Assembly: GCA_025765595.1 (NCBI GenBank)
Contig: JAIVFH010000040.1
Span: 62,001 to 126,000, forward strand
Length of the DNA: 64,000 nucleotides
Origin: Obelidium mucronatum
Taxonomy: Eukaryota; Chytridiomycota; Chytridiomycetes; Chytridiales; Chytriomycetaceae
Direction of reading: 5' to 3'
This document shows positions 41,129 to 53,162 of the stretch, in pieces. The first letter of the stretch is position 1. Every line of letters begins with the position of its first letter. The notes under the pieces were generated by a model that saw only the letters and a program-made list of their open reading frames with translations, did no database searches and had not been told where the DNA came from. The translations under genes and the position numbers were made by a program.

Positions 41129-41543
41129 TTTAAAAATAACAACGCCAAAGGCGTGGTTTATAAGCGCTGCAGCTATTGACCCAATTACGTGTGTATTTGA
41201 ATTCTGTCACTTGTACTTGTGAGACTGACGTTCAAATGGCAGATTCGGTGGACTTTCCTTCTTTATTCCCTTGATTGTGCAGGCTTTATTGGCTGGAAGC
41301 GGTTTCATGCATGTCGACCATACAATTCCATGTAACACAACTTCAAGTTATACATGTGACATTTACTTTGGCGGAGCCTGGTTGGATGTTACGGCCTTCT
41401 ATTTCTATAATGTCGCAATTGCCACAGTTATTCAAATGGTTATATTCATCACTTGCGGATCGATTGCAGATCATCGAGGTACCTATTGAATTTCCACATT
41501 TTATTCCAACCATGCGAGCCTGAATAGATTGGCGAAAATCAAT

Positions 41544-41553
41544 CCTTTTTAGC
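41544..41553 (+). repeat. 5' asymmetric terminal inverted repeat of the Helentron
   Basis: CCTTTTTAGC matches, in reverse complement, GCTAAAAAGG at 51796-51805. Confidence 0.8.
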
Positions 41554-41670
41554 CTCAGCTATAAAGCTACACATCCTTTTTCTCTGTGCGGCGACATTTT
41601 GCTGAGCCACTATTATAATAAAGTGATCGCCCCACTATTTCATTGATTTTTCAATAAACACCGAAATTCA

Positions 41671-41739
41671 GTTTCCAATAATTACAAAATATTGGAAGTC
41701 ACTCAAAATTCAGTTTCCAATAATTCCAAAATATTGGAA
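41671..41739. repeat. two hairpin units near the Helentron 5' end
   Basis: Two tandem units (41671-41697 and 41713-41739) with arms TTTCCAATA and TATTGGAA lie outside the coding part, between the 5' end and the stop of the minus-strand gene. A diverged unit follows at about 41845. Confidence 0.8.
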
Positions 41740-41947
41740 GTCACTCCCCACTATAAACAGGAGTTGAGGGCCACCACTGCATACATGGCTGGTACTGCTA
41801 ATTTCTTTAGTTCGGAAATGTCACCTTAAGTGTGATATTCTGTTTCCAATAAGGGCGGAATATTGCTACACTATATTGCACAAAAATTGAAGAGCAGATA
41901 ATGGGCTTTATTAACCTAGTGATGACAAATTCAATATAAATAGCTAT

Positions 41948-43030
41948 TACCATTCATCCTCCTTAGCCACCACGTCCTTTTTTCCAAACACAACTCTGTC
42001 AACGTTGCCGTTTTCATCTTCATTGCGTTCAAACAAGACAACAAAGGTAGGGACAAAAGACACGTCTCCATTGGAATCCAGTTTGACTGTTGCAGAAACC
42101 AAAACAAAGTCACCTGGGAGCAAATGGGCAAGACGTTTGTTCTTTTGGAGTTCCTTCAGATCAAAGTCCTTTTTTGAGCAGTCAAAAAGAGGTATGAATG
42201 GAACACCGTCCTCATTTAGATTGTAAGGTCTGTTGGCTGCTGGTGGGCGTCTTCCGGGAGTTCTAGAAGGAGTACTTGCATTGGGTTTTGGTGGTGGTCT
42301 CATAGGAGTGTTTGTTGCTTTCGCAGAGCTCTCTGGCCCTGTAATTGTAACAGTTATGTAAGTCGGATAGCAGGATAAAGTAATACTCACAGTAGGTACG
42401 ACAAAAACGAATCCAATCAACGTCATCATGAACGCCAAAATCGAACGGCTTTGGCATTGGTTCTGATCCAATTCGCTTCGTCAGAAAGTCGCTGAAACCC
42501 TCGGCATGGGCTGATCTCAACAAAGACCGACAGAAAATACTTCCAACCAAGAACGGAGTGTTTTCAGTTGGGGGGCGGAAGACTCCATCTGTTCTATTGA
42601 GAACTTCACAAGGAAACAAGAAGGATGCAGGAATTTGCTTCTTCTCGAGGGTAGTTACGCCAAGGTAATATCCCGCTGAAAGAGAGAAATGAAGTTAGTG
42701 TCTATGCTTCCAATAAAATAAAAACATTGGAAGTTCCAATGCCTTCCAATAAATGAAAAACATTGGAAGTTAATTGTCCTTCCAATAAAGCAAAAACATT
42801 GGAACTAAACCTGGTTCGCCAAAAAAAAACTTTTGGTAACTCGCTGGACTGCGAATCACATCTGGGACGCCAAGACCGTTAGCAATGACACCAGCTTTTG
42901 ACTCAAGTAGACGAAGAATGTCAGCCAAGTTTTTTGGAGTCCGAGAAGATGCATCGCCGGAGAGGAATTTTGCAAGACTAACAGTGGCAGGTCGAGCAGA
43001 CGTTTCAGAGTCCCAGTTAGCACTGAGCAT
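41948..43030 (-). CDS. Helentron accessory protein A, function unknown
   Basis: Three exons give a protein of about 300 aa. It starts MLSANWDSETSARPATVSLA at 43030 and includes NLADILRLLESKAGVIANGL and SYQKFFFGEPG. An intron with three hairpin units comes next, then YYLGVTTLEKKQIPASFLFP, NTPFLVGSIFCRSLLRSAHA and KPFDFGVHDDVDWIRFCR, followed by a Pro-rich linker (TPMRPPPKPNASTPSRTPG). The C-terminal part is beta-rich: GDFVLVSATVKLDSNGDVSF and VPTFVVLFERNEDEN. I recognise no family. Some Helitrons carry RPA-like OB-fold genes, and the C-terminal stretch could be such a fold, but this is only a guess. Confidence 0.6.
42708..42805. repeat. three hairpin units in intron of accessory gene A
   Basis: Three units with arms CTTCCAATAAA/AACATTGGAAG are strung together between donor (about 42811) and acceptor (about 42677) of the minus-strand gene. 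Confidence 0.85.
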
Positions 43031-43193
43031 TTAGGGAATCGGTAGGGAAGGTTTTGAGGGGTGGGTAGGTAGTTTGAGGGGGCAGGGATGTTGCCTTTAT
43101 ACCTTTTTCCCGCCTGGCCAAGCAGTGTGAATATCCAAGCAACGTGAATTAAGGCCTCCAAGCAATTTGGAGAGAATCCAAGATTTTTTCAAA

Positions 43194-44904
43194 ATGGAGC
43201 CAAGCGCAGACACGCACACAGACGACAACACCACAGAGGCCAACTCGCCGACACCTTCACAGGGGACAAGAAGCGGCGCCGCTATTAGCACTGGTGCTAT
43301 CGAAGATGTACAACCAGGGCTGCGGTAAGGACACACACCAAGAGAGCTATAGTGTCTAAGTTATTGAGCTCTTGCTAACCTAACACTGATCCTAGCAATG
43401 ATAGAAAACGCACCAGGGATGAGCGAGAACCTTCAGATGACGAGGCAGCACCCACCTTTGGACCGCCAACAACTATAGCCGCCGCCATAACTGCAGGGAT
43501 CGGTCGTCCTTGCAAAACGCGCTGAATACCTGTCCATAGACCGTGAAGCATTCACCCAAGACCCGAACAAGTCCGCAACAAGCTTGGTGGATACCCTGTT
43601 ACAATCTCGAATAAGTGTGGAAATTGACGAGCGTCTGGGAATGGCAGCTGCATTCAAGGCAGTACTACTCAATGTGATAAGCGACGCAGCAACCTTTGGT
43701 GACTGTCTGAGCCAAGTAGCTCAAGCGCAAGGACAAAACTGTTTTTATATTTCTCAAGCATTCAACAGGTAAAGTAATTTTTTCCTTCCAATAATTTTCC
43801 TTTATTGGAAATGGGATTTTCCAATAATTTTCCTTTATTGGAAATGGGATTTTCCAATAATTTTCCTTTATTGGAAATGGGATTTTCCATAGGTTTTCAA
43901 CTTACAATCTTTGACCAGATTGTTTCTTTTGCAAGCCATGCCAATCGAAGAATGGAGAGATCTACTGGCGAGAGAGTACGAAACTGCTTTCCCATCAACT
44001 ACTCACCAGCCGGCGTCACACTCCCACAAAAAGCAAAAGGTTGGGACTTCTATGGGTGATACTTCGGCTTCAAGCCTTTCACGACGGAAGTCAAGTGGTA
44101 CAACCACCAAACAAGTGCAGAAAAATTTTGATCAACTGTACAACAAGTTGGATGCTTTATTGGCTTTATCGGTTTTCCAACCTTTGGCTCCAGCTATTGC
44201 CGAGCTTGCCCAAGATATAAGCATTGGAATGAAGTATGCTATTATCCTGAACAAGTTGACCAGGTAAGATAATCAAAAGTTTTAAATTAAAGTATTCCAT
44301 TAAAAAAAGCAAAACTAGGGAATTCAACGGAATATGTGAGGACTTGTATCGCTCCCGGTGTGATGGGAAACTTGGACGGTCATCAAAAGTTCTTTCTTTT
44401 GGGGTATCCTTGCTTCTGGAAACGGTGAAGTGGCTCAATTTCTATATTCAAGATCACAGGGGGAAAAAGCCACCAAAGGGGTATTCATCGAAGCGGCACA
44501 TTGAAGATTATCTCCTGGGGCTTCGTGGGAAGGGGGGGGCATATGGTGCTCTTCTGACTCCTCAGGAACACTTGAAGGAGAAGGAGAGAAAGGACAATGC
44601 CGCCGAAGATGCGCGAAATCAACAAGTCACCGAGGATGAAGAAGCCAGCGACTCCGTCACAGACTCAAACAGAAAAGGAAACGGAAAAAGAAAAGACAAG
44701 AAGAAGCGGAAGACAAGTGATTTCTCCGAGATGGACCCGCAAATTTTCAGACTTAAAGATGGGGAGTTCAAAGGTTATTTACCATTGGAGGTGCTGCGAG
44801 TTTTCTGTGAATCGAAGCGCATCTCAGTTGACGGTGAAGGTGTGACTGTTATTGATCTAACCAACGACAGTGAGAGTGAGGACGAAGCCGGGGGAAATGC
44901 TTGA
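43194..44904 (+). CDS. Helentron accessory protein B with SUMO-interacting motif
   Basis: The gene starts MEPSADTHTDDNTTEANSPT. Exon 1 splices (CG|GTAAGG ... CCTAG) to NDRKRTRDEREPSDDEAAP. The frame shifts near 43500 and continues KRAEYLSIDREAFTQDPNKS, VDTLLQSRISVEIDERLGMA and NCFYISQAFN. Further exons give MPIEEWRDLLAREYETAFPS, VQKNFDQLYNKLDALLALSV and SFGVSLLLETVKWLNFYIQD. A charged linker (DSNRKGNGKRKDKKKRK) and LPLEVLRVFCESKRISVDGE follow, and the end is VTVIDLTNDSESEDE, a textbook SUMO-interacting motif. The middle looks alpha-helical. I know no such Helitron protein. The exon borders near 43500 and 43890 are uncertain. Confidence 0.65.
43786..43876. repeat. three perfect hairpin units, 33-bp period, in intron of accessory gene B
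   Basis: Units at 43786-43810, 43819-43843 and 43852-43876 are identical: arm TTCCAATAA, 7-nt loop TTTTCCT, arm TTATTGGAA. They fill the intron between donor GTAAAG (43769) and acceptor CATAG (43892). Confidence 0.95.
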
Positions 44905-45232
44905 GTTCAATTTCTTTTGATGCTTATGCTACTTTGCTCTGCTTTGCTGCTTGCTGCTTTGCTGCTTTGCTGCTTGGTGAATTATTCATTTTTTCTTGGC
45001 TTTTTTTGGTATATAAGTAAAGAGTTTCCCTCGTAGTTTCCCTCATCTCTAGTTTTTCAATTCATTTCAATTGAAAATTTCTGCTTGGGATATATCCAAT
45101 TTTGACCTTCCAATATTTTCAAATTATTGGAAAGGCCAAAGCCCTTACCAGGTTTGTTCTTGTGTTCTGGTTGAACCCCTTCCTATGTTCAAATGTTCTC
45201 CTGCACTATAGTCAGTCTCTGGATAAATTCAA
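44905..45232. other. Helentron spacer with GCTGCTTT microsatellite and one hairpin unit
   Basis: This stretch separates accessory gene B from the Rep-helicase gene. At about 44934-44977 it has GCTGCTTTGCTGCTT-type repeats, and at 45107-45133 one hairpin unit (CTTCCAATA/TATTGGAAAG); it probably holds the promoter of the Rep-helicase gene. No ORF is recognised. Confidence 0.5.
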
Positions 45233-48200
45233 ATGTTGGGAAAGGGACGAAGGGAGTCAGCTGCCTCAATGCTTCCGAGATTTGCTCCTGTCCAATCATT
45301 TTATCCTGAAGCCCTGCCTCCTGCGACCCCCCTTCGGCAGATTCAGGCAGCGGAAAGGGTTTATTCAAGTTCTCGGAAAGCCATCAGCAAGAGGAACACC
45401 CACTCCAAAAAATCTTCAGCTGAAAAGAGGGACATTCGCGAAAAGCAGCGTGTGCGTATGTGGGAGTTACGGGTTGCAACTGGGTTTACTCCAAGGGCGG
45501 CAAGTATCCGAGAGCGGGATTCTGATCGACATCGGGAGGTTTACAATGCAAAGTTGCTTGCGGAAAGGAATGCTGCTGTATACTCTGATGAAGAATTGGC
45601 TGACATTGACAACAAGTACCAGTTTGGATTACAGTCATCAGTGAAAGACTTATACACCAAGTGTGCCCAACGGCTATCATTTGCATCAATGACTAAGCAT
45701 TGCTGTATTGTTTGTGATTGTAACTATACGAAGAACGAATTGACTTACAGTAGCCCTTCTTTGGAATATTTGGTCAGTTGCTGGCGTATTTGTCACAATA
45801 GCGTGTTTGTCACAATAAGATGTTAACATATTAAACAGAATTTACGGAAGTCTCTTCGGGTAGCAGAAACAGTCATGAATTCATTGGACCCGCTTCTCGT
45901 GTCTCAATATGACGTTTCCAAATTTGATGTGAAGTTGTCAAAGCTATTACTGAGTCAAAATGCCTTCTATTTGAATGAGAACAACGTTCTTCACCCAGTG
46001 ACCTTTCAAAGCGAAGAAAGTGAAGAGTTGGTTTATCAGCCACTTCCCGGAAAGTGGGTCATTGTGCCGAAGATTGAGCTGACCATTGCCTTGTGTCGTG
46101 ATTGTTATGCTGGAACCCGAAGTAAAAGTCAGCATATGCCAGCTGAAGCAATCGCTAACGGGAACTGGATTGGACGTCTGCCTGCAAAGTTCGGCGATGT
46201 GTCTAGAACAACCGAGAACGTTGTATCCTTGATGCAGCCATGCATTTATCTGTCATCAATTTTTGGCCATGGATCTGACAGCAATACCCGAAACATCAAC
46301 TCTCACCATTACATTCTGAAGAACAATGCACCTGTGCTTTGCTCTGTCCCTGCAAGTATTGGCTCTACCTTTCGCTTTACCTTTGTTGGAGCATGGACAC
46401 CTTTGGAGATTGCAGAGCAAAAAACTCGATATAAATGCCAAGACTTTGTTTATGAACTCTTGGAATTTTTTGAGGCTCATCATTCTGGTTACAAAGAACA
46501 CAATTATCTTGTAAACAAACGTCACCAAGAGAATGCAAGCCAAGAAGAGCTGGATGCAGAAGGTCAGTTTGGTTCCCATTAATTTTATGTATTTTCCAAT
46601 ATAGTTTGGTTTATTGGAAACTTCCTATCTTGGATTTCCAATAATTTGGTTTTATTGGAAACTTCCTATCTTGGATTTCCAATAATTCTGTTTTATTGGA
46701 AACGTGAATTCACATCATTCCCGCTTTTTTTGTCTTATTGGTTCCTTTATTTTGGTCCTAATTTTTGGTTTTCGCAGTATTTGTTGACCGCTCCTTCAGT
46801 AGTGAGACTGCTGTAAATGAGAAGATTTGCCGTTTGTTGAACCACACAACATACAACACCGGTTCTGCAGCTTCGTCCTCTAATGAAGATACTATCCACT
46901 ACGTTTTCTCACCTTCAACAAACACTTCAATGTCTGCCCCTCAACCTGACATCCCAGACAGTACTGCAGCTGCTGCTGCTGCCCTGCAACCACAACCTGA
47001 CCTTGTTGACGGACCACAAGACTATGCTGTTTTCAGATCTTCGACGTTTTCAAATGCCAGAGGGTTCTCTGAGTTTCCTTTGTATTTTCCATGTTTGGTC
47101 CCATTTGGTCGCGGTGGCCCAAACGAGCAACGTAGTGTCCCTCTGTCTGAAGATCGATGGATTAAGCGTATATACCGCCTCCACGGCGGAAAGGCGGCTA
47201 GACATTGGGGCTGTGTTGGTGTAACGCATGACCGCACTTCATCGCGTAAATCTTATTCACAACAGTATCTGTCAATGCGACTACGGAAGTCAGTTGTTGC
47301 GGAGGGGTCGTGGACCCGTGAAGATATTCGAAAGTGTCAGGAGCATGCCGAACAAACAGAGGAATGCCTTAAACGCGGTCTTAGTATGCCGCCAGTTCCT
47401 GTTGAAGTTAAACGTCTGTTGGGATTAAAAAATTCAGTGATGCCTGGTCTTCGCGGTTACACTGGTTCAGATGAGTCCCGCCAGAGTGCTCTGCACACTG
47501 CTTTTGGGTTGCAGAGAAGATTGGGGGTTCCCAATGTGTTTGCAACAATCTCCCCTGCAACATCGCAAAGCTTTGTTGTTGCCATCAATTGTCATCTATT
47601 GAGTGGGGAACTTTGTGAGTTGAAGTTCAGCATTGGAGGGGAATATGACGACTTAATCCTACCCACCCTATCCAAGCGAGCTTCTGAAGCAGCAAAAAAT
47701 CCTTATGAATGTGCGGATTATGCTCGTAGAGTGCTGGAGGTGTTTTTGGAGAGCTTTATTGGTTGGGACTTCAAGTACAGAGCTCCCACAAGAGGGGGTG
47801 GTTTTTTGGGTGTTCCCCGTTATGTCACCACCTCTGCTGAAACCCAGAAAAAAGGGGATATTCACTTTCACATGAATATCTCCATACATGGGCTACCGAA
47901 AACGTCAGAAGATTTTCGTAAGCGTCTGGAAGACCCTGAATTTAACAAAAGGTGAGTTCATAATTTTCTAATTTTCCAATATTCCCAAATTATTGGAAGC
48001 CTTATTTCCAATAATCCAAAATTATTGGAAATTGATTCTTAACCTTGTGCACTTTTAGGTTCATGGCCTTTCGTGACACTGTTCTTGATACTAGTCCTCC
48101 CTTCTCATGCTCTTGCAACTCCTGTCCAACTCCCGGTTGTGATGGCACATTGGAGACTGTTCCTATTCCAGGGGAGGCTTTTCAGAAACTCCGAGTTGGG

Positions 48201-51200
48201 AAGAAACCATGTACCACCTCTGAGTGCAAAACGTGTAATCGATCATTTTGCCACAAGGACGTCATCGAGGAGCGTATCCGCGAATTTGCAAAAGAAAAGA
48301 ACATCTCCATAACTCCGGAGGATATTGATCGCTTTCGTTGTTCCCCTCCATCAAAGGATTTCATCATGTCCGACAAGGAGACAGTCCTGTTTGCTCTTTG
48401 TTTGCTTGAGTTTCAGTTTCATCATGCGTCTCATACACGCTCCTGCTTCAAGTGCACCTCCAGAACCCCCCATGCTTCTATTTGTCGATTCTTGATACCA
48501 AACCTGGCAAATATGCTGGAAACTGCTATGGATCCAACAACCTGTATAGTGAAAAGTTTTCGTTCAATTGGACTGGAATACTATAATCTTTGTAATCTGC
48601 ACTGGACGCGACTTTCCCTGGACAACATGGATGTCCAGTTTCTAATTAATTCCGCAACAAGAACATCAACAGCTTACACGATTCAGTACACTTTTAAACG
48701 CCAGGGACTGGAATCATCTGTTATTATGAGAATTGGCCTGTATTCTAAAACTGTGGATGCTGTTTTGTCGAGGGAAGATGACTCTGCTCTCTCAAAAGAA
48801 GAGCGGGGGCTTCGTATAATCAACAAGCTGTTATATACCTTGACAAAACCTGTGGAAATCTGTACTACAATGGCTGCATACTTAACAATCAATGATGGTG
48901 ACTTATTTAAGAGCTCACATGAGTATGTGTACTCCAATCTGGGTCTCATTACTGGCTGCTATCCTGACTCGACACCTGCAGAATCTGCTGAAGAGTTCAT
49001 TGACATAAGCATTTCCGTTTCAGCTCTCAATTCTTCTGGGACTTTATCTCCTATGTCTCTATACTGGGAGCGCTGTTCAAACACCCCTACCCACAGAAAG
49101 ACTCTTGTTGATACAAACTACATTGATTGTATTGAACAGTACCACCTTGTGGGATCTGGGCCGTTGAAGCACTGGGTGCGCAACAAGAATTTTGCACGTA
49201 AAGTCCTAATCATCAACGGGCGCCAATTGCCAAATATGTCCAAGGACTTACCTGCTGCAGACATACAGTTCTACTACAAAAGCCTGCTGTGTCTTTTCAA
49301 GCCTCACACTTCCTCGACAGACCTCAGGTACACTTCAGGTAAATATTTTGTTTTTTCTGTCTTCCAGCCTTCCAATAATTTCATTTTATTGGAACAGACC
49401 AGTCCTATGAGGACGCCTATTCCCAATTTTTGCTTCATGGGGCTGCAGTCAATGTAAGGGCTGCACTGCTTCATGAGGAACTCAATCGGGGGTATTATGA
49501 GAGCAATGAAAAGAAGTTCTCCAATGAGGAATCAGATGAAGAGAGGATATTGAGGGAGCACCCGCTTTCAGATCCAGATTCCATAATACTGCCTGCTTCT
49601 GACATTTGTGACCATGATCCGGATGATGAGGATGGGGACTTGTTGGCAGACTTTGAACAAGAATTGGCTGATTCTATTGCGCGTTCTGCTGCTGCCGATC
49701 AGGATTCTATCCATCCCCTGTTGGATGCTGCTATTTCCTCTTCTGTCAACAATGCTCCAATATTGCAGCATACATATCTTCCAACATTTTCAACTTTTGA
49801 GGATTATAAAGCTGCTTTAAAGGCACAGGAAGCGCAGCAGGAGCTGGATTTTAATGGCGCGGATCGCTACTATCGACAAGTATCCAAATCTGAGAAAGTT
49901 CTTCGTCTAGGGGATTTACTTGCCCCTGTACCATGGGTTGAGTCGACTCCAGGGTGCTGTTCCGAATCCTTCCATTTTGAAACCTTTTGCCAGAATCTGT
50001 CAAATATCAAGTGCATTCTGCTTGGATTTTTGGCAGCATTACACTTTTGAGACTTACGCGAGGCACCTTCTTTTCCTCTATCTTAATGATGCTCACCAAA
50101 TTGATGATCCTACCAAATACAACCTGAAACCTCAGCTAATTGGGTACCTTGGTGGCGAAGCCGGCACAGGCAAATCGGCCGTAATATCTGCATTATTAAC
50201 ATTTGCAAAACTATGGGGAAGAAGAAATACTATTGAAACAATGTCATTCACTGGGCTGGCTGGTCTCATGATTGAAGGAGACACAATCCACTCCTATCGT
50301 GGGTTGACCATATGTTTGGATCAATCTCCTCCTTTGAATCACACACTCAAAACCAAGATACAATGTGTTTACCTGTCAATTGTTGATGAGGTTTCAATGA
50401 CAAAAATTGATGTTATGGGAAAAGCAGATTTGAGAACTCGTGAAGCTTGTGGAAATAGTCCCCTTGTTTGGGCAGGGAAACATCTGCTCAAGTGTGGAGA
50501 CTGGTTGCAACTACCTCCTGTTGGAGGAAAGCCTTTGTTTGATCATGCTTCCCGGAACTCGTCAGACAGCTCAAATGTTTCTGCAGGTCGACGCCTGTGG
50601 GCAAACGTGAATTTTGTTGTGTTTTTGACCAAGGTTTGTTTTCACTTGATTCCATCTTTCCAATATTTTTGTTTTATTGGAAAATGGTACCTTCCAATAA
50701 TCCTATTTTTATTGGAAATAGGTCTGGCGCCAGAAAGATGACCCCGTATTCATGGGGATCCTAGCGCGAATGCGTTGGGGGGCACTGACTCAGCCTGACA
50801 TTGATGCAATCAATGCTGCAAGTTCCCAGGCTACTTTGTCAAATGTCCCACCTACTTTGGAATTCTTTGCTCCAGTGGCTACTGCAAAGAATCTTGAACG
50901 ATGTGCTGTCTTGCGGAAGACAGTCATGGACTTTGCTCGGGAGAAGGAATTGGTGTGCTACCGGATTGTGGCAAAGGCTTCGAAGGATGTCAATACTGCA
51001 GAATTGTCTCGTCTTAGTTTTCTGAATGACGACGCCACCAGCAAGATTCCCCTTACTTTTGAATTCTATCTCGGAATGCCTGTGATGATAACAAAGCGTA
51101 TTCCGGATTTGGAACACTTGAAGATCTTTGCCAATGGAACTTTGGCCTTTGTTTTGGGATTTGCGGCCGCGTCAAATGAATCCTTCATATCAACAACAGT

Positions 51201-51720
51201 GAATGGTGTTGTTGTTAAACAATTCAAATTCATGCCTGGCTGGTTGTGGGTCAAAGTTCGGAATTGTAATCAGGTGCTGGTGGCTGGTTGTGCTCCTGGT
51301 GTTGTTGCAGTGCCCCCTCTCACGCTATCTGTCAGAATATCACTGCCCAATTCTGATAAGTCAAAGTCCATTACTCTGACCCAATTTCCCGCTATCTCGG
51401 CTTTGGCTTGCACCCCTGAGAAACTTCAAGGGGTCACCTTGAATCATTGGATCACCATTGCTCAATTGGACCGTCCAAACTATAATCCTCAAACTTTATA
51501 TGTAGCTTTCTCTCGTGTCAAGACATTGGCATCCATTAGACTTGTGCAAAAACTTTCCATGGCTTATTCAAGAAAGTTCCGTCCCCCTAAAAAATTTGCA
51601 GATGAGATGATTCGTCTCATTAATTTGGTACAACTGCCAGATTATACTCCCAATCATATTATACATACCTTCCATCAATGGAAAGAGGAGCAACAGTCTT
51701 TTGCTCTTGCTCTTTCTTAA
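45233..51720 (+). CDS. Helentron Rep-helicase (DUF6570 + HUH Rep + PIF1-type helicase)
   Basis: A multi-exon gene starts MLGKGRRESAASMLPRFAPV. Introns fit at 45773-45838, 46563-46777, 47952-48058, 49339-49397 and 50633-50722. Domain order: a basic N-terminus; a DUF6570-type region (LTIALCRDCYAGTRSKSQHM, NGNWIGRLPAKFGDVSRTTE); a Helitron_like_N Rep domain (SFVVAINCHLLSGELCELKF) with the HUH motif in ETQKKGDIHFHMNISIHG; a Cys-rich part (CSCNSCPTPGC, CTTSECKTCNRSFC); and a PIF1-like SF1 helicase with Walker A in YLGGEAGTGKSAVISALLTF, Walker B in CVYLSIVDEVSMTK, GDWLQLPPVGGKPL and the C-terminal LQGVTLNHWITIAQLD with YVAFSRVKTLASIRL. The frame slips near 49940, where an unseen intron or indel must lie; otherwise the reading is open. 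It would nick, unwind and replicate the element. No apurinic endonuclease domain is seen. Confidence 0.88.
46593..46701. repeat. three hairpin units in Rep-helicase intron 2
   Basis: Units at about 46593-46619, 46636-46661 and 46677-46701 share arms TTCCAATAA/TTATTGGAA, the last two with the linker ACTTCCTATCTTGGAT before them. They lie between donor GTCAGT (46563) and acceptor CGCAG (46777). Confidence 0.9.
47974..48030. repeat. two hairpin units in Rep-helicase intron 3
   Basis: Arms TTCCAATA/TTATTGGAA at 47974-47998 and TTCCAATAA/TTATTGGAA at 48006-48030 occupy the middle of the intron 47952-48058. Confidence 0.9.
49369..49392. repeat. one hairpin unit in Rep-helicase intron 4
   Basis: TTCCAATAA ... 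TTATTGGAA stands directly before the acceptor ACAG in the short intron 49339-49397. Confidence 0.9.
50657..50719. repeat. two hairpin units in Rep-helicase intron 6
   Basis: Two units (about 50657-50681 and 50692-50718) with arms TTCCAATA(A)/TTATTGGAA lie in the intron that begins GTTTGTT (50633) and ends AATAG (50722). Confidence 0.9.
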
Positions 51721-51795
51721 GTATTGACTCCATTTTGCAAATAAACACGTTTTTATGCAGAACTATTCTTTAAAGCTTCTACAAAAAAATTCAGC

Positions 51796-51829
51796 GCTAA
51801 AAAGGTCCTAGCGGATGGCTTGCCACCGC
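51796..51829 (+). repeat. 3' terminal repeat and hairpin of the Helentron
   Basis: GCTAAAAAGG (51796-51805) is the partner of the 5' repeat. The hairpin 51811-51829 pairs GCGG(A)TGGC with GCCACCGC around a TT loop, seven bases from the 3' end. Such a hairpin marks the transposition terminator of Helitrons. Confidence 0.85.
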
Positions 51830-53162
51830 ACCTCAGTTTATTTATGGAGTTCTCTTCTTGGTGGAACTTGTTGCTTGTTATTCCCAGCGCTGATAAGGAA
51901 TGGTGAGAATTGCTGTTTGGGAATCCTTATTGAAACTGCTTCAGATCACTACATTTACGCTTGGATTTTGACCATCATTATAACTGTTTGCATTGGGATT
52001 TGTTGGATGCTCGTGTATGCATATCTTCCTGTTATTGCAAGAAACCATCTGGACTTCCTTGCGAAAGTGGATACCGCTGAAGCGACGAAAGACACAGTTC
52101 TCCGCAAATTAGACTCAATAACCAACTCAATTTCATCACAGCAATTTGTATGGATGTATGTCGCAGCTTTGCTTGGAATGGCTACCATGATCATATTGGC
52201 TCTGGTCTACTCTCCAAGCCAGCCGCTACCAGAAACATATGCGTTACAAATAGGAATAGCCCTGTTTGGAGTCATCTGGTTAGGTGGTGCCCTTATTGTC
52301 CGCAAGTATTTGAGAGCCAGGCCTGGACCGTTATTTCCCATCGACGCCAATATTTTTACATTCTCCACGAAAAATGGCAAGTCCTATAGGCATGTACTCC
52401 AAGCTTTTATATAACTGTTCTTTCCAACAGTGCTTCGCACAATCAAAAAGGCAAATCAAATGAAGCAACTATTCACCTTCTTAATCGGTTGGTTTATGTT
52501 CAGTGATTCTTTTCAAAGTTGAGTCGATTTAACTTAAGTAAGACTGTGCTCTCCAACACACTAAATTCTCTTCGATAGCTCTTAGCAGTGTGGCGGTGCT
52601 TTGGGCCCAATCCCAACATGGCTTCACAACTAAAGATTCCCTTATCTTGGCCATTGAAGTTCCTCTGGCAGCGGGAATTGGTGTCATCATGTGGCGCAAG
52701 CTTCAAGAATGCACTAAAATAACCTCCAAAACCCTTCTCGTGATTCAATCGGGTCTATATACAATTGTTCCGTTATGGGGAGTACTTGGGTTTATACCAG
52801 GAATCCCAGTTGGCTATCGAACCAAACTTGAAATCTTTGTGTTTTCAGCTTTTCACTGAATCTTATTGGGAGGAAGCCAGAGTACTTGCCGGTCGCTGTA
52901 TGCTCAACTTATTCCACCGGGATCTGAGGCAGAGTTCTTCAGTTTGTACGAAATAACAGATAAAGGTAGCGCTTGGTTGGGCCCCCTTGTGGTTGCTGCT
53001 ATAAATAACTCTGGGGCAAACAAACTGTATTCAATGGTGTTTTTGGCTGCCCAGTTTGGTTTGGGTTTTATTGCCTTCTCACTGGTGGATGTCAACAAGG
53101 GAATTGAGGATGGACGAGAGTTTGGGACAGCTGAAAGGGAAAGAGATCCTGCGTTGTCTTAG

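Follow-up and report, generated by a model that had tools for sequence, protein, structure and literature searches.

The bacterial REP palindromes are dispersed sequences linked to an HUH enzyme, and the VANDAL transposons of plants belong to another class than the rolling-circle elements. According to the available portion of one report, the protein VANC21 binds a 9-bp motif that lies in introns and in intergenic and terminal non-coding parts of VANDAL21, where it forms tandem repeats and undergoes gain and loss (PMC5735166). Introners, as described in the accessible part of another report, insert into many genes and make introns (PMC9860276). The Helentron, Helitron2 and proto-Helentron groups have, in the sections of PMC4067079 available to us, a T beside their ends, asymmetric terminal inverted repeats, accessory genes and non-autonomous derivatives. 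Among the titles and abstract openings of the open literature that we surveyed, a scope that leaves subscription papers aside, no description was found of palindromes spread through a Helitron or Helentron.

The window, i.e. the whole stretch of 64,000 nucleotides of Obelidium mucronatum DNA that we analysed, contains a rolling-circle element within which such palindromes occur. The C-numbers used below (C293, C313, C30, C212, C165 and so on) denote contigs of the same 48.3-Mb genome. The element, its ends and its genes are as follows.

41543-51836, plus strand: rolling-circle element, a Helitron2-like member of the Helentron group, with ends common to C293, C313 and C30
41544-41553, plus strand: 5' arm of the terminal inverted repeat, CCTTTTTAGC, an exact inverted match to 51796-51805
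51796-51805, plus strand: 3' arm of the terminal inverted repeat, GCTAAAAAGG, 31 bp inside the 3' end
41947-43030, minus strand: minus-strand gene, three predicted exons (42811-43030, 42391-42675 and 41947-42338) with an open spliced frame
43194-44904, plus strand: gene 1, four predicted exons, with relatives in C212, C165 and C3
45233-51720, plus strand: Rep-helicase gene, six predicted exons, with matches to DUF6570, Helitron_like_N and PIF1 helicase

The preliminary description called the element a Helentron, and the label is apt in that Rep (Helitron_like_N) and a PIF1 helicase stand in one gene, the combination that marks Helentrons (PF14214, E 7.9e-8, and PF05970, E 4.8e-14, matched in adjacent exons of the window). 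It needs a qualifier, however, because no Pfam family was found at E 1 or better in 50752-51720, at the Rep C terminus, where an AP endonuclease was sought; since no endonuclease domain was found, the element is nearer to Helitron2 than to Helentron proper as the two are described in the available sections of PMC4067079. Asymmetric terminal inverted repeats without an endonuclease are what distinguishes Helitron2, and the 10-bp repeat here is asymmetric, its 5' arm standing 1 base inside the end and its 3' arm 31 bp inside. A T precedes CCTTTTTAGCC in 12 of 13 derivative copies, the thirteenth being cut at its 5' end, and CTCAG followed by T was found at all four 3' ends seen. The longest stem found on searching the 3' end is 4 bp (TGGC-TT-GCCA at 51816). 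A second copy of the 5' part of the window's element, 99.7% identical over 1047 bp, occupies C10:1-1047 and ends at the contig end.

The ten introns of the element are predicted from GT..AG ends and the reading frame. In the window copy the frame changes inside gene 1 exon 2 (43396-43768) and again in the Rep-helicase gene between about 50000 and 50050; the helicase region of the C165 relative is a single continuous frame. Relatives of the minus-strand gene are 48% identical in C212 and 40% in C165, and neither 41947-42471 nor these two relatives gave a Pfam match; a PDB search with the gene likewise gave no match. Gene 1 has no Pfam match over the cut-off, and two weak PDB matches to its exon 4 (E 0.24 and 0.71). 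For both genes, no known DNA-binding domain was matched in Pfam or PDB, and structure predictions gave unusable models (mean pLDDT 31 and 45). No relative was confirmed in the viral contigs scanned with a Rep exon.

The palindrome is 25 bases long and occurs within the element as 17 full units and one half unit (41844) between 41673 and 50717. Its loop is 7 nt in 15 of the 17 and 8 nt in the other two (46594 and 50692). Eight units are perfect; 100 dinucleotide shuffles of the window produced no perfect unit. The units are gathered at eight stations.

41673-41739: station 1, in the 5' region, two units (41673 and 41715) 42 bp apart, with the half unit at 41844-41868
42708-42804: station 2, in minus-gene intron 1 (42676-42810), three units
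43786-43876: station 3, in gene 1 intron 2 (43769-43892), three perfect units (43786, 43819 and 43852) with a 33-bp period
45108-45132: station 4, in the spacer between gene 1 and Rep, one unit
46594-46701: station 5, in Rep intron 2 (46563-46777), three units 41-42 bp apart
47974-48030: station 6, in Rep intron 3 (47952-48058), two units
49370-49394: station 7, in Rep intron 4 (49339-49397), one unit, which adjoins the acceptor
50658-50717: station 8, in Rep intron 5 (50634-50721), two units, the second of which adjoins the acceptor

Predicted introns thus contain 14 of the 17 units, and the other three lie in the 5' region (two) and the spacer (one); local tandem duplication is visible with periods of 33, 36 and 41-42 bp. 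These positions confirm most of what had been reported at the outset, namely at least 15 units in the element, two of them near its 5' end, one in the spacer at 45107 and three perfect ones with 33-bp spacing in a single intron. The statement that none occurs elsewhere in the window also holds, except for two weak matches (3811 and 57090), each with 3 mismatches and a 12-nt loop. The claim that units occupy most introns, with Rep intron 1 as the exception, translates into six of the ten predicted introns: Rep intron 1 (45773-45838) is indeed free of units, but so are gene 1 introns 1 and 3 (43325-43395 and 44264-44318) and minus-gene intron 2 (42339-42390). The spacer between the minus gene and gene 1 (43031-43193), likely a shared promoter, has no unit, which speaks against the units being simple promoter sites.

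The same geometry prevails across the genome. TTCCAAT-N11-ATTGGAA occurs at 233 sites in the 48.3 Mb and at none in the backwards control. A spacing of 12 between the 7-bp arms occurs at 7 sites (control, 1), and spacings of 1-10 pooled occur at 33 (control, 1). Spacing 10 accounts for 15 of these, of which 14 are copies of a single sequence, and spacings 1-9 for about 2 each. A free search of six sequences for 9-bp inverted repeats with loops of 3-15 returned the CCAAT type in 103 of 109 alignments, overlapping alignments being counted apart. The outer base is loose: ATCCAAT-N11-ATTGGAT, with A on both sides, occurs at 41 sites genome-wide, and the half-changed form, with A on one side only, at 73. 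In view of these 73, we dropped the 41 sites as a candidate case of compensated outer bases.

Of the 233 TTCCAAT sites, the 50 on contigs C1-C40 were classified, and 49 of these 50 are tied to relatives of the element, 46 lying in or beside element-related sequence and three, on C33, sharing merely unit sequences with the C3 relative. Repeats common outside introns, which the preliminary description regarded as telling against its account, were found just in the sense that units of relatives also occur outside introns. Helitron_like_N has 12 hits in the genome, seven at loci with TTCCAAT units and two (C212 and C13) at loci with the ATCCAAT type; at C52, C79 and C179:17761 no unit was found within 3.5-3.6 kb, and these three loci have no tblastn match to the window's Rep. 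Two further observations concern particular places. One unit-like site, C6:462491, has no relation to the element within the 3 kb read, and C65:165773-166413 holds five ATCCAAT-type units with an identical loop at 154-bp steps, in sequence also present on C3, C6, C50 and C126.

Related copies show which properties of the array persist. Outside the 5' region, C293 and C313 are mostly 79-96% identical to the window in 250-bp blocks; they keep the window's introns, and their unit numbers differ, with one unit instead of three in gene 1 intron 2 and two instead of three in minus-gene intron 1. In C313, the stretch with Rep intron 2 is lost. C212 and C165 are more diverged (66% identity to the window in Rep exon 4) and have the same gene order. 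Both have units, with at most one core mismatch, at the window's eight places, i.e. the 5' region, minus-gene intron 1, gene 1 intron 2, the gene 1-Rep spacer and Rep introns 2-5, their introns being judged from breaks in tblastn alignments and two matches that fall within coding alignments and have two core mismatches each (C212 4647 and C165 8363) being left out. Homologous stations number eight in C40, C212 and C165; in C212, the core is mismatched at two of them, in minus-gene intron 1 and in Rep intron 4. Five of the window's six unit-empty segments are empty in C212 and C165 too, and the sixth, the 3' end, lies outside the fetched sequence.

The stations are also evenly spaced. Gaps between them are 1050-1528 bp in the window (mean 1283, CV 0.12), 727-1430 bp in C212 (mean 1160, CV 0.22) and 842-1482 bp in C165 (mean 1224, CV 0.16), the relatives sharing ancestry and providing no independent repeat of the spacing. 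Only 4 of the 3003 choices of 8 from the window's 14 non-coding segments, a segmentation of our own choosing, are as even by CV; weaker measures of evenness are matched by 17 (smallest gap), 129 (farthest point from a station) and 230 (largest gap) of the 3003. When choices were length-weighted, 12 of 20000 reached the evenness of the stations by CV; with the choice restricted to introns, 8 of 210 reached their smallest gap.

Non-autonomous derivatives retain units as well. The 4.4-kb C30 derivative has no long Rep frame (its longest related open stretch is 157 aa), and its units are present. In the 5' parts of 13 copies of this non-autonomous family, the core is intact at 54 of 78 unit places, as counted from the alignment, the remaining places being changed, deleted or in rows that no longer align. 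Some of these copies come in pairs, C119/C1, C124/C140 and C296/C172, which share the ten bases before the 5' end and could stem from duplicated segments or from an assembly that contains both haplotypes. Elsewhere, C167 has three 5' ends of a related element (11472, 20348 and 29233) 8.88 kb apart, as in a tandem array, and the copy read is interrupted within the minus-strand gene, beyond which the sequence resembles, by eye, an endonuclease gene. These three copies were rejected as unit-free negatives because two slightly decayed units are present and the copies are broken.

The explanation that we favor, with confidence that is evenly poised, is that the units are sequence-specific, dyad-symmetric DNA-binding sites for a dimeric protein, arranged at eight stations and serving in recognition of the element. 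A repeated protein-binding dyad would explain the strict geometry, the conservation of the core, the non-coding location, the tandem turnover and the retention in derivatives. Of the three readings offered in the preliminary description, binding sites for the element's own protein is thus the best supported, the binding itself being what we infer. Two inverted half-sites, TCCAATA and TATTGGA, would be contacted by the dimer over 25 bp overall, at about eight stations along the transposon that are on average 1.2-1.3 kb apart. The stations lie in the 5' region, one spacer and six introns, probably because the motif is not easily kept in coding sequence; introns would house the sites, and the sites would not make the introns. 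Units would be gained and lost locally by tandem duplication and stations would persist. The units most likely allow the element to be recognized throughout its length, which could either keep the element accessible against host silencing, in the manner of VANC, or mark it for replication. The protein that binds could be an accessory one, the product of gene 1 or of the minus-strand gene. Several observations weigh against this reading: neither accessory gene matched a known DNA-binding domain, the arms are able to fold as hairpins, the outer base is loose, the core changes no more slowly than the exons, its excess conservation in the non-autonomous family is weak, and evenness is less marked by measures other than CV.

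The main rival is that the units act as single-stranded DNA, the strand displaced in rolling-circle transposition folding at them into hairpins for Rep recognition, second-strand priming or protection. Enzymes related to Rep in other elements do read hairpins, the units can fold as DNA (-3.4 to -5.3 kcal/mol for the 4 of 17 folded), and both the even spacing along the element, which this account would predict, and the retention of units in the non-autonomous C30 copy are consistent with it. We nevertheless consider it unlikely. Twelve fetched sequences contain 97 units with at most one core mismatch, 72 of them distinct, and the information in these 72 lies in TCCAATA/TATTGGA. If folding were what is maintained, mirror positions of the arms should match in excess, but no arm pair was matched significantly above shuffles, in a test whose limit of one core mismatch hides compensated core pairs: pair 9/17 is matched in 36 units versus 42.7 in shuffles, pair 10/16 in 25 versus 30.2, and the outermost pair in 50 versus 43.8, a value reached by 0.063 of shuffles. 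The compensatory stem changes expected of a structured RNA or DNA hairpin were not found among the 72 units, and no conserved flank was found beside the arms. Moreover, a hairpin does not require a fixed 7-nt spacing. Base identity and spacing, rather than mere pairing, appear to be what is kept in the units.

A second possibility is that the units have no function and are a palindromic minisatellite that has spread passively and is tolerated in non-coding DNA only. The visible tandem duplication would fit such spread, but the fixed geometry and the eight stations common to two diverged relatives would not, and neither would the rates of change. Between the window and C293, the core has changed at 12 of 179 positions, three times less than the loops (25/114) and the other intron sequence (102/474; Fisher p 2e-4 and 3e-6, respectively); the spacer has changed at 170/635 and the exons at 711/8446, and the core is not slower than the exons (p 0.50). 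The comparison with C313, a close relative of C293, gives 6/145 for the core, 19/92 for loops, 82/397 for other intron, 169/636 for spacer and 652/7849 for exons. Alignment may favor the core by pairing units with one another, but the loops in those same units change at the rate of the neighboring intron. In the non-autonomous family, an excess conservation of the core is only suggestive, which leaves passive spread some room: with local masking the core has changed at 4/594 versus 223/13302 positions (Fisher p 0.066; placement control 0.08), a count from nine of the 13 copies that omits C225b, which is truncated, and C1, C296 and C140, whose flanks are common to C119, C172 and C124. Without masking, where rows that do not align throughout are included, there is no difference (78/875 in the core versus 1718/19308 elsewhere). 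On balance, passive spread seems quite improbable.

We think it very unlikely that the units act in RNA as intronic hairpins, whether by shortening introns or, as the preliminary description had put forward, by bringing splice sites together. Such a role could be suggested by the intronic location of 14 of the window's units, by RNA folds of -4.0 to -7.7 kcal/mol (4 of 17) and by the position of units beside the acceptor in Rep introns 4 and 5. The arms do not covary, however, four of the ten introns have no unit, and in the window, C212 and C165 alike units also stand in the 5' region and the spacer. In addition, at the former Rep intron 4 of C30 (one copy) the unit is intact and the donor is missing, homology beginning three bases past it.

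Least probable of all, to a degree that we would set it aside, is the notion, also raised there, that insertion of introner-like palindromes created the introns: C293 and C313 share the window's introns with other unit numbers, the unit is 25 bp versus introns of 59-215 bp, four introns lack units while the 5' region and spacer have them, and, rather than whole-intron copies in many host genes, the units are parts of introns, with 49 of the 50 listed sites element-related. One point stands on the other side: in the C10 Rep relative (35-43% identical) both intron 4 and its unit are absent, the frame continuing unbroken where they would lie. Joint gain of unit and intron would account for this, but housing would do so equally well. 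The Rep relatives in C355, C10, C68 and C35 (40-43% identity) have open frames of 575-1287 aa, and among the sites listed no unit site lies near C10:341 kb or C35:134 kb.

Returning to protein-binding dyads, we would go one step further only tentatively, and with the chances rather against us, to suggest that a self-recognition array has evolved here, in which a dimeric and perhaps element-encoded protein reads the 25-bp palindrome at eight spaced stations, introns are kept as the sole coding-region sites, and the whole is an independent counterpart of VANC with spacing added. If so, an element of the Helentron group would carry family-specific recognition sites throughout, as is known for the plant VANDAL elements, and the introns of a transposon would gain a purpose, as housing for DNA sites. 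A single 25-bp probe and two candidate proteins would then be enough to test how a transposon distinguishes its own copies from the host.

Compared with known systems, the units resemble the bacterial REP palindromes in being dispersed palindromes tied to an HUH enzyme, but they have no conserved flank, lie in a eukaryotic-looking genome and are tied to the element. With the Helentron, Helitron2 and proto-Helentron elements described in the available sections of PMC4067079, the element here has in common Rep, PIF1 helicase, asymmetric terminal inverted repeats, a flanking T, accessory genes and non-autonomous derivatives; it has five predicted Rep introns, whereas the mite and Phytophthora elements, the two so described there, have none, and those sections describe terminal palindromes and central repeat blocks, as opposed to palindromes spread through introns. 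Like the introners of the accessible part of PMC9860276, the units are repeated elements within introns, but they are parts of the introns of one transposon group. The VANC arrays, as far as the available text of PMC5735166 describes them, differ in that the VANC21 motif is 9 bp long and in one orientation, the word “palindrome” being absent from that text, whereas here a 25-bp dyad stands at evenly spaced stations common to diverged relatives; and VANC21 binds the VANDAL21 motif, whereas the two accessory proteins here are candidate binders. In both, a short, family-specific motif occupies the non-coding parts of one transposon family, is gained and lost in tandem and is rare in other transposons. 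By this analogy, and within the available text of PMC5735166, the VANDAL/VANC motif arrays are the closest described counterpart of the units.
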